A stretch of 64,000 bases of DNA from Candidatus Poribacteria bacterium (lineage in GTDB: Bacteria > Poribacteria > WGA-4E > WGA-3G). The position numbers and the translations under genes were made by a program. The stretch spans positions 372,001 to 436,000 of the forward strand of contig OY282386.1 in the NCBI GenBank assembly GCA_958295945.1. The letters run 5' to 3'. The notes below the pieces were generated by a model. It had not been told where the DNA came from. It saw nothing but the letters and a program-made list of their open reading frames with translations, and searched no databases. Shown here one piece after another: positions 21,458 to 62,657 of the stretch (the stretch's first letter is position 1; each line of letters opens with the position of its first letter).

Positions 21458-21480
21458 GTGGTGATCTTTCCTTTCAGTGA

Positions 21481-21714
21481 GTGTAAAGTCTTTTGCAAAA
21501 TATCACAGTAACCATTGTAGTGCCAAATCAAGTAATCAACGGTATGAACGCCTGTAGGCGTTCCCCGGGTATGAATGCGCTTAGACGAATACGCGTTTGG
21601 TATTCCCCGGGTTTCCGTGCCCCGCCATCTTTCAATCTACCGACTATTGCGGGCACAGAGACCCCGCACTACAATGGATGGCAAGAAGTTAGCACCAAAC
21701 GCTTTACCCACCCC
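21481..21714. repeat. Arm-bounded palindromic mosaic element A
   Basis: Degenerate outer arms (gtgtaaagtcttttgca; rc-like gttagcaccaaacgctttac) enclose inner inverted repeats ccattgtagtg/cactacaatgg. Within are a gaacgcc-tgta-ggcgttc hairpin, the module gaatgcgcttagacgaatac with gcgtttggtattc, and a large tttccgtgccccgc...gcgggcacagagacc stem. It fills most of the 488-base gap between genes. The modules recur at 38.2, 39.4, 62.1 and 62.4 kb. Confidence 0.7.
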
Positions 21715-21944
21715 TTCAGTGTAAAATGCTTGAAAAAATGTAAGGTTAATGCTAACGTTTGAACAGAGTTATTTCTATTTGTAAACAATATCAGATTCCA
21801 CTGAACTTGTCAAGAACTTGAAAGCACGTAAACATATTGTCATTACACTCTTTATTGTGTCAATATACTTATTCTGCAATGTATAACATTTAAGACAAGA
21901 ATATCAATCCTCCACACATTTTATGGCAATAAAGGAGTTTATCT

Positions 21945-38141: not shown

Positions 38142-38506
38142 GGGTGTGTAAAGTTATTGTCACCGTAGATGTCAATTCAAGTGCAAAACCTGTCCTCTAT
38201 TGTAGTGCCAAATCAAGTAATCAACGGTATGAACGCCTGTAGGCGTTCCCCCAAATCAACGGTATGAATGCCATTAAGGCATTCCCCCAAATCAACGGTA
38301 TGAACGCCTTTTGGCGTTCCCCCAAATCAACGGTATGAATGCCATTAAGGCATTCCCCGGGTATGAATGCGCTTAGACGAATACGCGTTTGGTATTCCCC
38401 GGGTCTCTGTGCCTGCCATTCCTTGTCCTGTCCGGCAACGGGCGGGCACAGAGACCCGCCCCTACAATTCATGGTGAGAAGTTAGTGACACAATCTGGAC
38501 ACACCC
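38142..38506. repeat. Arm-bounded palindromic mosaic element B
   Basis: Left arm gggtgtgtaaagttattg at 38142, then agatgtcaattcaag and ctattgtagtgccaaatcaa. The right end reads ctacaattcatggtgagaag then gttagtgacacaatctggac, ending acaccc at 38506. The core holds a tandem hairpin array (38223-38362), the gaatgcgcttagacgaatac module and a long ggtctctgtgcc...ggcgggcacagagacc stem (38402-38458). A further arm-like sequence (aagaactttacacacct) lies at 39230-39246, so a larger unit up to there is possible. Confidence 0.7.
38223..38362. repeat. Four tandem ~35-bp hairpin repeats with paired stem changes
   Basis: Four units of caacggtatgaaYgcc...ggcRttcccc follow each other at 35-36 base spacing. 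Their hairpins are at 38231-38248 (gaacgcc-tgta-ggcgttc), 38266-38284 (gaatgcc-attaa-ggcattc), 38302-38319 (gaacgcc-tttt-ggcgttc) and 38337-38355 (gaatgcc-attaa-ggcattc). The C-G pair alternates with T-A on both sides, so every stem stays perfect. Loops vary freely. Confidence 0.85.
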
Positions 38507-39313: not shown

Positions 39314-39523
39314 GGGTGTTTAAAGTTTTTGTCACCGTAGATGTCAATTCAAGTGAAAAACCTGTCATCTATTGTAGTGCCAAATCAACGGGACCAATGC
39401 GCTTATGGCATTCCCCGGGTCTCTGTGCCTGCCATTCCTTGTCCTGTTAGGCAACGGGCGGGCACAGAGACCCGCCCCTACAATTCATGGTGAGAAGTTA
39501 GTGACAAAATCTGGACATACCCC
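39314..39523. repeat. Arm-bounded palindromic mosaic element C
   Basis: A shorter relative of element B. Left arm gggtgtttaaagtttttg at 39314, inner ctattgtagtgccaaatcaa, one truncated hairpin module (accaatgcgcttatggcatt) and the ggtctctgtgcc...gggcacagagacc stem. The right end is ctacaattcatggtgagaag, then gttagtgacaaaatctgg, ending at 39523. It has far fewer hairpin units than B, which lies 800 bases away. Confidence 0.7.
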
Positions 39524-44107: not shown

Positions 44108-44965
44108 ATGCCAAACAGTCCAATCTTAAATGGTGAACCATTCAGTCCAGAGAAAACAAAAGAAATTGCCGAACAGTTCTTTCAAGATGGATTTGTACAT
44201 CTACCGGATATCCTCACTGAGGAAGAAGTAATCGCGCTACGAGACAAAACAGATTCGTTTTTCGCCGATCCAGAACTTGCCGACAGAACAAATCCACACC
44301 TTGCTGATGTCCGATATATCCAAATGGGTAGACATGCGGAGACGGGAGAAGAGCTACCCTTCATTCTACGAAACACCATAGAACTTGATCCGATTTTCCG
44401 AGATATGCTTCTCCGTGAACCCATCCTAAGTCTCGCAGAAGCAATTGTTGGACAAAACTGCAAGTTTTGTGGACAGAATGTACTCCGAAATCTACCCGGT
44501 CTTTCCATAAGCAGTTGGCATGTTGATGGTTCTGTGCACTTCCCCGTTACTGAAGAGATGCCACGGCACGACCCACGACTGAGGATGCCTGTGATGTGGT
44601 TCACAGTGCAGATGGCACTAAATGACATCAATACACTTGAGGAAGGACCAACGCAGTATGTGCGTGGGAGTCATTATTCTGGAAGAGGACCCAACAGTCA
44701 AGAAAATCCGGAATTTGAAGGAAACAAACCTGTCTCAATCTTTTGCAAAGCAGGAGATATCTATCTACAAGACCCACAATGTTGGCATCGCGGTGCACCA
44801 AATACATCAAACAAAACACGTTATATTATTCAATCTCAGTATGCTGCATATTGGGCATATTGGCGGTTCAATCTGTGTAACGATGTCCCTGTACCGGATG
44901 ATGCACTCCAAACCGCAGATGAACGTCTATTGAGTCTATTAGGACGCAGCCGTCCAAATGAATAA
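44108..44965 (+). CDS. Phytanoyl-CoA dioxygenase (PhyH) family protein
   Basis: 285 residues. HxD in SWHVDGSVHFP, distal His in QCWHRGAPNTS with Arg in KTRYIIQSQYA. The jelly-roll loop is EEGPTQYVRGSHYSGRGP. The N-terminus EQFFQDGFVHLPDILTEEEV is the usual PhyH start. It overlaps the region preceding the amidase start, so the two are cotranscribed, possibly with the sulfatase across the MITE. Confidence 0.9.
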   Translation: MPNSPILNGEPFSPEKTKEIAEQFFQDGFVHLPDILTEEEVIALRDKTDSFFADPELADRTNPHLADVRYIQMGRHAETGEELPFILRNTIELDPIFRDMLLREPILSLAEAIVGQNCKFCGQNVLRNLPGLSISSWHVDGSVHFPVTEEMPRHDPRLRMPVMWFTVQMALNDINTLEEGPTQYVRGSHYSGRGPNSQENPEFEGNKPVSIFCKAGDIYLQDPQCWHRGAPNTSNKTRYIIQSQYAAYWAYWRFNLCNDVPVPDDALQTADERLLSLLGRSRPNE

Positions 44966-44987
44966 TAGAGAATTAGGGGAAAATGAC

Positions 44988-46448
44988 ATGTCAGAAACAC
45001 CACTTTATTACAAGACTATATCACAGATAGCAGAATTACTGTCATCTAAGAAGTTATCACCTGTTGAATTGACAAAGGTAATGCTTGATCGTATTGAACA
45101 CCATGATGGTCATCTGAAAAGTTATGCTACTGTAACTGCTGAACAAGCAATGGCAGCAGCTCAACAAGCTGAACAGGAAATTACTGCCGGTAACTACCGC
45201 GGTCCACTTCACGGTGTGCCTATTGGGGTAAAGGATCTATTGTTTACAAATGGCATTCGCACGATGGGTGGGGCTTATGTCATGGCAGCTCACATCCCTA
45301 AACACGACAGCACAGTTGTCAAAAAACTCAAGGATTCTGGTGCAGTGATACTTGGTAAATTAAATCTGACTGAAGGGGCAATGGGTGGATACCATCCAGA
45401 ATTTGATATTCCCATAAACCCTTGGAATCCAGATAGATGGACAGGTTCATCATCAAGTGGATCAGGCGTTGCAACCGCAGCGGGATTGTGCTCAGGTTCT
45501 ATTGGTAGTGATACTGGGGGTTCAATCCGATTCCCTTCAGCTGCATGCGGTATCGTTGGATTGAAACCGACTTTTGGGAGAGTGAGTAGATATGGTGTAT
45601 TGGAGCTTGCACTCTCTATGGATCATATCGGTCCGATGACACGTAGTGTAGCAGATGCAGCAATAATGCTTGAAGTAATTGCTGGTTCTGACACAGGTGA
45701 TTTTTCAACATTGGATGAAGCAATAATGCTTGAAGTAATTGCTGGTTCTGACATAGATGATTATTTAACATTGGATGATACTGTCCCGACAATGTATGAT
45801 GAGATTCATCGGGGAATTCAAGGTGTTCGAATAGGTTTCGACGAGAATTACGCAACAAAGGATGTAGACGCAGAACTTGCCGAAGCAGTATCAAACGGTG
45901 TGAAATTACTGCAAGAATTGGGTGCTGAGATAATTGATGTTGAAGTGTCAGATATAGATGAGTATGTATTGGCGTGGCCAACAATCTGTTCTTGGGAGGC
46001 TGTGAAAGCGCATGTAAAGTGTTATCCTTCACATCGTGAGCATTACGGTCCTTGGTTCCAAGGATGGCTTGACATGGGAGCAAATGTTACACCGGCAGAA
46101 TATGAAAAAGCACATAAATTACGAACTGCATGCACTAAACATTTCAAACGTGTGTTTCAAGATATTGATGTGTTGGTATGTCCGTCAATGTCTGCCCCAC
46201 CTCATCCGATTACTCCAGAGATGTTGTATGGTCCAATGGAGACAAGACCAGCAAAGTTTCAAAGATTTACTGTCCCGTTTAACTACAACGGTACCCCAAC
46301 GTTATCTGTTCCGTGTGGCATGAACAGTGAAGGATTACCATTGAGTATTCAGTTTATTGGAAAGGATTTGAGTGAACCGTTATTGCTACAAGTCGGTCAC
46401 GCTTATGAAAGTGCAACAACCTGGCACACACTTCATCCAGATGTATAA
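44988..46448 (+). CDS. Amidase (amidase signature family)
   Basis: About 486 residues from the ATG at 44988 (AGGGG ~9 bases upstream). An in-frame ATG at 44958 overlaps the PhyH gene. The catalytic Lys is in PIGVKDLL. The Ser-cisSer signature is WTGSSSSGSGVATAAG followed by GSDTGGSIRFPS, giving the Ser-Ser-Lys triad. Residues ~222-261 contain a direct 20-residue duplication (AIMLEVIAGSDTGDFSTLDE / AIMLEVIAGSDIDDYLTLDD). Family members hydrolyse amides such as acetamide, glutamine-type or peptide amides. Confidence 0.9.
   Translation: MSETPLYYKTISQIAELLSSKKLSPVELTKVMLDRIEHHDGHLKSYATVTAEQAMAAAQQAEQEITAGNYRGPLHGVPIGVKDLLFTNGIRTMGGAYVMAAHIPKHDSTVVKKLKDSGAVILGKLNLTEGAMGGYHPEFDIPINPWNPDRWTGSSSSGSGVATAAGLCSGSIGSDTGGSIRFPSAACGIVGLKPTFGRVSRYGVLELALSMDHIGPMTRSVADAAIMLEVIAGSDTGDFSTLDEAIMLEVIAGSDIDDYLTLDDTVPTMYDEIHRGIQGVRIGFDENYATKDVDAELAEAVSNGVKLLQELGAEIIDVEVSDIDEYVLAWPTICSWEAVKAHVKCYPSHREHYGPWFQGWLDMGANVTPAEYEKAHKLRTACTKHFKRVFQDIDVLVCPSMSAPPHPITPEMLYGPMETRPAKFQRFTVPFNYNGTPTLSVPCGMNSEGLPLSIQFIGKDLSEPLLLQVGHAYESATTWHTLHPDV
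45661..45780 (+). repeat. 60-bp in-frame tandem duplication in the amidase gene
   Basis: Bases 45661-45720 and 45721-45780 are tandem copies with 52 of 60 positions identical by eye. They keep frame and add 20 residues after SVADA, a helix normally present once in this family. The two copies have begun to diverge, so the change is not recent. Confidence 0.85.
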
Positions 46449-62071: not shown

Positions 62072-62657
62072 GGGGTGTATAAAGTTCTTGGCACTAACTT
62101 CTTATCATCCATTGTAGTGTGAAATCAAGTAATCAACGGTATGAACGCCTGTAGGCGTTCCCCGGGTATGAATTCGCTTAGACGAATACGCGTTTGGTAT
62201 TCGCCATGATTCCCGGGTCTCTGTGCCCCGCAATTGTTGGGAGAAGAGATCGCGGGACACGGAGACCCCGCACTACAATGGATTGCGGTATTTTCCGCTA
62301 AATTGATGCCTCTGGCGCGGTTAGGAAACCACACCTACCGGGTTTGGGAAAATGAGAATTACCCGATTAAGAAATAAATTGGGTAATTTGATTTCAAAGC
62401 CTAGCGCGCTTACAAAGCACCAAATCAAGAAATCAACGGTATGAACGCCTTTTGGCGTTCCCCGGGTATGAATGCCTTTTGGCATTCCCCGCCTACGGGG
62501 TTTGGTGTGATTATGATGACCCGTTTAATAAATTAATCTTCATACGGGACTGAAGAACGTATTACGAAAGTTAGAGTGGATATGACAACGGCTAAGTAGG
62601 AACAGTAAGACATCCGACAATATCAACAGATTCTTTTGCCAAAAACTTTACACACCC
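62072..62657. repeat. Arm-bounded palindromic mosaic element D
   Basis: Left arm ggggtgtataaagttcttgg at 62072, the right arm gccaaaaactttacacaccc ends at 62657. Inner catccattgtagtg/cactacaatggat repeats enclose gaacgcc-tgta-ggcgttc, the gcttagacgaatacgcg module and a gggtctctgtgccccgc...gcgggacacggagacccc stem. To the right is a separate set (62430-62490) with gaacgcc-tttt-ggcgttc and gaatgcc-tttt-ggcatt hairpins. It fills the gap between the TonB receptor and the D-aminoacylase genes. Confidence 0.7.

Follow-up and report, generated by a model that had tools for sequence, protein, structure and literature searches.

A 35-nt hairpin unit of Poribacteria, probably a small mobile repeat that inserts into other palindromes

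Tandem hairpins whose stems change in pairs raise the question of whether the fold is preserved in place or imposed when the repeat is copied, and of what does the copying. We address this for an array in a 64-kb stretch of a Candidatus Poribacteria genome; "the window" refers to this whole stretch, and its features are listed in Table 1. Four units of 35–36 nt occupy positions 38223–38362, with the layout CAAATCAAC-GGTAT-(7-bp stem, 4–5 nt loop)-CCC, and their positions, stems and loops are as an earlier sequence-only reading had described. All four stems are perfect (GAACGCC/GGCGTTC or GAATGCC/GGCATTC), and pair 4 switches between C-G and T-A unit by unit along the array. Tandem Repeats Finder (TRF) gives a period of 35/71, the hairpin pattern has eight matches in the window vs. 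none in 100 shuffles, and the 153-nt array folds into four hairpins (z = -4.8). Further copies reported at 21.5, 62.1 and 62.4 kb were likewise found (units at 21541, 62138, 62438 and 62465), each with C-G or T-A at pair 4.

Table 1. Hairpin units and their carriers in the window.
Feature	Position	Strand	Hairpin span	Details	Evidence
Unit 1 with nested leader AAATCAAGTAATCAAC	38210..38251	+	38226-38251	stem 38231-38237/38242-38248, C-G type, loop TGTA	sequence, hairpin pattern, DNA fold
Unit 2, CAAATCAAC-GGTAT-hairpin-CCC	38252..38287	+	38261-38287	stem 38266-38272/38278-38284, T-A type, loop ATTAA	sequence, hairpin pattern, DNA fold
Unit 3	38288..38322	+	38297-38322	stem 38302-38308/38313-38319, C-G type, loop TTTT	sequence, hairpin pattern, DNA fold
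Unit 4	38323..38358	+	38332-38358	stem 38337-38343/38349-38355, T-A type, loop ATTAA	sequence, hairpin pattern, DNA fold
Fifth, longer mosaic hairpin unit GGGTATGAATGCGCTTAGACGAATACGCGTTTGGTATTCCCC	38359..38400	+		directly after unit 4	sequence, loose pattern
Host-A carrier around array, inverted arms	38199..38472	.		left ATTGTAGTGC(units)GGGTCTCTGTGCC; right GGGCACAGAGACCCGCCCCTACAAT, unit-free	
Unit plus mosaic hairpin	21525..21608	+		C-G type, loop TGTA; inside another host-A carrier, about 21514-21677	hairpin pattern
Unit in host-A carrier	62122..62163	+		C-G type, loop TGTA	hairpin pattern
Two units, unit-in-unit nest inside host B	62422..62490	+		C-G then T-A; GCGCGCTTACAAAGCRC^GCCTAC	hairpin pattern, empty-site comparison
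Host-A carrier with degraded unit	39365..39490	.		CAAATCAACGGGACCAATGCGCTTATGGCATTCCCC	sequence comparison

The unit is a lineage-restricted, high-copy repeat. Within the single-contig genome of 5,337,261 bases, a strict pattern matches 83 copies vs. none for a reversed-pattern control, and a loose pattern matches 104. All 18 genomes of the same genus (g1) carry it, at 2 to 218 copies each, as do most genomes of a second genus of the same family (g2), with one more copy in a different family. Among the 80 matches listed in a scan of GTDB, 79 are from Poribacteria; the other, from a Burkholderia, is probably due to chance. Loop variants are genome-specific, with different Poribacteria genomes amplifying different variants of the unit. 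We found no description of Poribacteria repeats in the mainly open-access literature searched.

Comparison of filled and empty sites indicates precise insertion of the units into other palindromes, a point the sequence-only reading missed. When the flanks of units are joined, they recover an empty site elsewhere in the same genome: attgtaggggc^gggtctctgtgcccg with 0 mismatches against two filled copies, and gcgcttacaaagcgc^gcctacggggtttgg and caacgccaaatgcgc^gtgtggcatttggcg with 1 mismatch each. Units also occur inside units; the nested site ccaaatcaac^ggtatgaatgcc is recovered with 1 mismatch, a C-to-G change where the flanks meet, and so are tandem junctions. Across other Poribacteria, an empty counterpart (3 or fewer mismatches of 28) exists for 37 of 91 filled contexts vs. 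2 of 89 with swapped flanks. These comparisons, in the source genome and in the other Poribacteria, revealed no target-site duplication at the unit. Several junctions lie 1–2 nt off the empty site, and boundaries are thus not always exact. The array itself lies entirely within one arm, the left, of a larger element with inverted repeats (host A), whose right arm serves as an empty-site control within the element, and the same division between left arms with and right arms without a unit holds for the carriers of the window.

About 25 distinct and mutually unlike carriers have precise empty counterparts. Across all contexts, joined flanks show only a modest rise in palindromicity; because flank complementarity alone gave this modest enrichment, we turned to folding of the empty sites. 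A strong hairpin lies at the insertion point in 12 of the 25 carriers, compared to 3.8% of random positions, and 8 (32%) are loop insertions, compared to 9% at random, with the reservation that carriers were detected as repeats, which biases them toward palindromic ones. Six of the 25 have no hairpin at the site by the criterion used. Roughly 14, judged by eye, have GTAG/CTAC at the hairpin foot, which is a REP-like foot. Examples are GCGACC-AGG^G-GGTCGC, GGGAAT^CGGAG-TTCCC, GCAGAATACGC^GTGTGGTATTCTGC, GCACTCCG^CTGGAGTGC and GGCGAGGTTAGGAA^ACCTCGCC. At one carrier site, of the type with GTAGG and CGGGTAGAGCG on its two sides, the unit is present in both orientations.

Within the source genome the picture is narrower, as only four or five carrier classes occur and nearly all copies sit at the same site of host A or host B; most copies there may stem from carrier amplification of few insertions. 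The carrier at 21.5 kb sits between two divergent genes, and in 12 relatives the corresponding intergenic region is without it. Since it is the entire carrier that the relatives' region lacks, part of the spread of the unit is hitch-hiking. Taken to its limit, this would mean that a few ancient insertions were multiplied by a MITE (host A) and a hairpin repeat (host B), with the unit inert today. The shared insertion sites and the wholly absent 21.5 kb carrier favor such an account, but carriers and amplified unit variants differ between genomes, and loci differ in their unit-in-unit nests and tandem arrays; we consider amplification of carriers as the sole process to be somewhat unlikely.

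Several features of the carriers were seen in passing. The host-A carrier at 21475–21725 has longer outward inverted arms (GTGTAAAG... / ...CTTTACCCAC) and a possible 7-bp target duplication, TTCAGTG, and looks like a MITE of some transposon. At locus L053 (2430–2500), both arms of one carrier contain a unit; the two are oppositely oriented, and the CCC end of the second is degraded. Apart from the repeat family, the window contains a 60-nt tandem repeat in two copies (45654–45778) inside an ORF (44958–46448), its length a multiple of three.

We then asked how far the paired changes extend. As circularity was to be avoided, copies in the source genome were collected by the leader AATCAACGGTAT plus a single C 20 bases on. 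Hairpins form in 81 of 83 such left-anchored matches, with pair 4 distributed as T-A 40, C-G 34, C-A 4 and T-G 3; the alternation between C-G and T-A seen in the array is thus present without being the absolute rule it had been taken for. In a cross-genome set of 73 distinct units, pairing holds in 95.1% of stem cells (89.1% in shuffles), four stem pairs change on both sides, and 25 cells are doubly changed compared to 3.0 in shuffles. The covariation score is 0.197, compared to 0.079 for shuffled and at most 0.071 for slid alignments; as the copies share ancestry, these counts are not independent events. The paired changes proposed from the array are therefore real in the cross-genome set, where the score clearly exceeds both controls. 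Neither are the units copies of two fixed sequences only. Fully paired stems include GAATGCC, GAACGCC, GAATGCT, GAAGCCC, GAAGTCC, GAATGTC, GAATACC and GAATGAC; GAATGCC alone is combined with 33 loops, and at least four loops (TTTT, ATTGA, ATTTA and TGTT) are each seen with C-G and with T-A.

Resident copies behave differently from what a preserved fold would suggest. In a fuzzy collection from the source genome, uncompensated changes number 16 in stems vs. 7 in flanks over equal numbers of bases; these rates are rough, with mosaic and truncated rows left out and some sites fixed by the fetch patterns. Stems of resident units are thus kept no better than flanks, and uncompensated mismatches in them reach or exceed background frequency, the outcome that the sequence-only reading had named as refuting its proposal. 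Because pairing decays in resident copies no more slowly than their flanks change, it is probably imposed at the copying of units, rather than held by selection on resident copies. That reading had offered a fold either preserved or copied as a hairpin; maintenance in place is unlikely, and imposition at copying or template switching fits better. Mutation pressure alone is able to supply either half of the pair-4 change, since the switch is a transition at a CpG in the same context in both arms.

The same data bear on whether the unit is a functional RNA hairpin (a terminator, stabilizer or regulator) that was selected and spread with its carriers. Stem covariation is what such an RNA would display, and 90 of 92 copies in the source genome are intergenic. 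By crude gene calls, units are enriched between divergent genes (32 of 70 sites vs. 22% of intergenic bases) and in tandem-gene contexts lie mostly antisense to the genes (26:8), although both tendencies may be carrier behavior. On the other side stand the loss of pairs in resident copies, the absence of a T run, and mismatches with no wobble bias (among left-anchored copies, 8 would wobble on one strand vs. 8 on the opposite strand). The same gene calls gave no enrichment of unit loci between convergent genes in this genome, and a terminator function is therefore not suggested. Rfam has no match in the window at the gathering threshold; the only sub-threshold matches are of miRNA type and fall outside the units. 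We regard a selected RNA as highly improbable. Replication-strand bias gave no clear pattern in this genome.

Replication template switching at palindromes could by itself generate both mosaics and paired changes, with no transposition. Published work documents such switching as a way of completing compensatory changes within hairpins (PMC8794818) and of homogenizing arms and inverting spacers (PMC8604942). Consistent with this, four loop pairs are mutual reverse complements vs. a column-shuffle mean of 1.2 (P = 0.011), and a single tandem array (L088) contains C-G, T-G and T-A at pair 4, all with an identical loop. However, the loop-inversion signal is weak, and template switching alone leaves unexplained the insertion of 35 nt into >20 unlike carriers in several genomes; as a full explanation it is unlikely.

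The sequence-only reading had likened the units to REP/BIME elements moved by RAYT transposases. It was right about their REP-like and mosaic character, and no RAYT gene is present in the 64-kb window; mobilization by RAYT is supported neither by loci nor by counts. Were the units ordinary REPs or BIMEs moved by a RAYT/TnpA-REP encoded elsewhere in the genome, this would account for the hairpin, the many copies, the intergenic positions and the mosaic arrays, as well as for the GTAT 5' of the stem at the position of the REP GTAG; many carriers are GTAG-footed as well, and Y1 proteins are indeed encoded. Searches of the whole genome with Y1_Tnp and RAYT profiles, the check that reading had proposed, yielded one IS200-type TnpA (above the NCBIfam cut-off for IS200, below that for RAYT) and one sub-threshold RAYT-like ORF (67.8 bits vs. 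a cut-off of 80). Neither is associated with units: both loci are flanked by their own, unrelated palindromes, and none of the Y1/RAYT loci inspected has a strict unit within 1.5 kb. Over the 18 genomes, unit copy number is uncorrelated with Y1 and RAYT counts (Spearman 0.07 and -0.07), and a relative (G002, 94% complete) has 95 units and no match to the Y1_Tnp or RAYT families. On these grounds (Y1 loci lacking units, no correlation, and a unit-rich genome with neither enzyme) we reject RAYT mobilization, and judge the underlying explanation to be quite improbable.

About nine TGTACCACAATCTGCCAGATTGTGTAG palindromes flank the RAYT-like ORF (L290:2311-3712; G000:C1 about 2313.5–2314.9 kb), and these also change in pairs (CACAATCTGCCAGATTGTG vs. 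CACAAACTGGCAGTTTGTG). The solo IS200-type TnpA (159 aa; L095:2740-3860, G000:C1 about 1609.5–1610.7 kb) is flanked by repeated CGCTCCAGCGGAGCG palindromes, with which it forms a separate candidate REP system. A weak second Y1_Tnp match at 4508523 was discarded as a false positive, its ORF reading as a CCA-adding enzyme.

Taken together, we think it likely that the unit is a tiny non-autonomous mobile repeat which inserts into palindromic repeats and into itself and is then carried as a passenger. The insert/empty pairs, hairpin enrichment at insertion points, both orientations, unit-in-unit nests, lineage restriction and covariation are direct observations in its support. The repeat body would comprise about 35 nt (leader AAATCAAC, GGTAT, the 7-bp hairpin, and CCC before a G). 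Its targets would be the loops or feet of the genome's other palindromic repeats as well as existing units, entered with no target duplication, and it would spread further as a passenger of carriers. Copying may proceed via, or depend on, a folded single strand, in which case source copies would always be well paired, whereas resident ones drift. Alternation between C-G and T-A would then reflect different well-paired source lineages, changed by CpG transitions in both arms, with the paired change possibly completed by hairpin-templated (quasi-palindrome) correction. Since carrier amplification and template switching can accompany insertion, our confidences in these explanations overlap.

A more specific version, which we offer tentatively, is that this mobile DNA finds its target by hairpin fold, not by sequence, with a non-RAYT activity joining the 35-nt single-strand hairpin to extruded palindromes at their loop or foot; the mobile DNA would thereby build nested hairpins and parasitize REP-like repeats. 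If the units are mobile as proposed, few known mobile inserts would be as small, they would be, as far as we found, the first bacterial transposase-free palindrome-seeking repeats, and their many natural insert/empty-site pairs would make target rules readable. The case also separates two situations that are often conflated, since changes in pairs within a repeat family can stem from constraint during copying even as the resident copies drift. Palindromes as safe landing sites would also help explain the build-up of mosaic intergenic repeats.

Among known systems, REP/BIME elements (RAYT = TnpA-REP; PMC2817692, PMC8266576) resemble the units as high-copy short intergenic hairpins with mosaics and a tetranucleotide 5' of the stem, which in REPs is GTAG/GTGG and in the units is GTAT, with GGG(G) on the other strand. 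Unlike RAYT-REPs, the units have no rayt gene that they flank, are abundant where Y1/RAYT are undetected, and sit inside other palindromes. REPINs are also hairpin-forming mobile DNA in which compensatory changes are common, but they are inverted REP pairs with a cognate RAYT (PMC3116915), whereas units are single or head-to-tail on the same strand, with no mixed-strand cluster among the sites examined. PATEs share the lack of terminal inverted repeats and of target duplication as well as a near-terminal palindrome, yet have two such palindromes and an IS605-type end relation (PMC3119063); the unit has a single hairpin, and no strict unit was seen at the Y1 loci inspected. IS1397, IS621 and other REP-targeting insertion sequences likewise prefer palindromic repeats as targets (PMC1525189), but are autonomous and have transposases; IS110 was rejected as mobilizer of the units because the source genome has no match to its transposase family (PF01548). 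Two MITE features are missing: the unit has no target-site duplication, and CAAATCAA and ...TTCCCC, its two ends, do not form inverted repeats.

The closest precedent is SMR-A of Haloquadratum walsbyi, a transposase-free repeat in tens of copies that makes no target duplication and prefers the palindromes of other mobile repeats, its mobilization termed enigmatic by the authors (PMC3119063). The units share this lack of target duplication and preference for palindromes of other repeats. SMR-A is archaeal, is about 110 bp long, has terminal inverted repeats and targets PATE/IS605 palindromes (PMC3119063), whereas the units are bacterial, measure 35–36 nt with one internal hairpin and no terminal inverted repeat, and target GTAG-footed palindromes and the unit itself. 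As far as we found, nested movers are known in one archaeon and have not been reported for Poribacteria. Because the RAYT and REPIN features tested fail and the terminal repeats of MITEs and SMR-A are absent, we place the units outside any named family, as a variant of the small mobile repeats.
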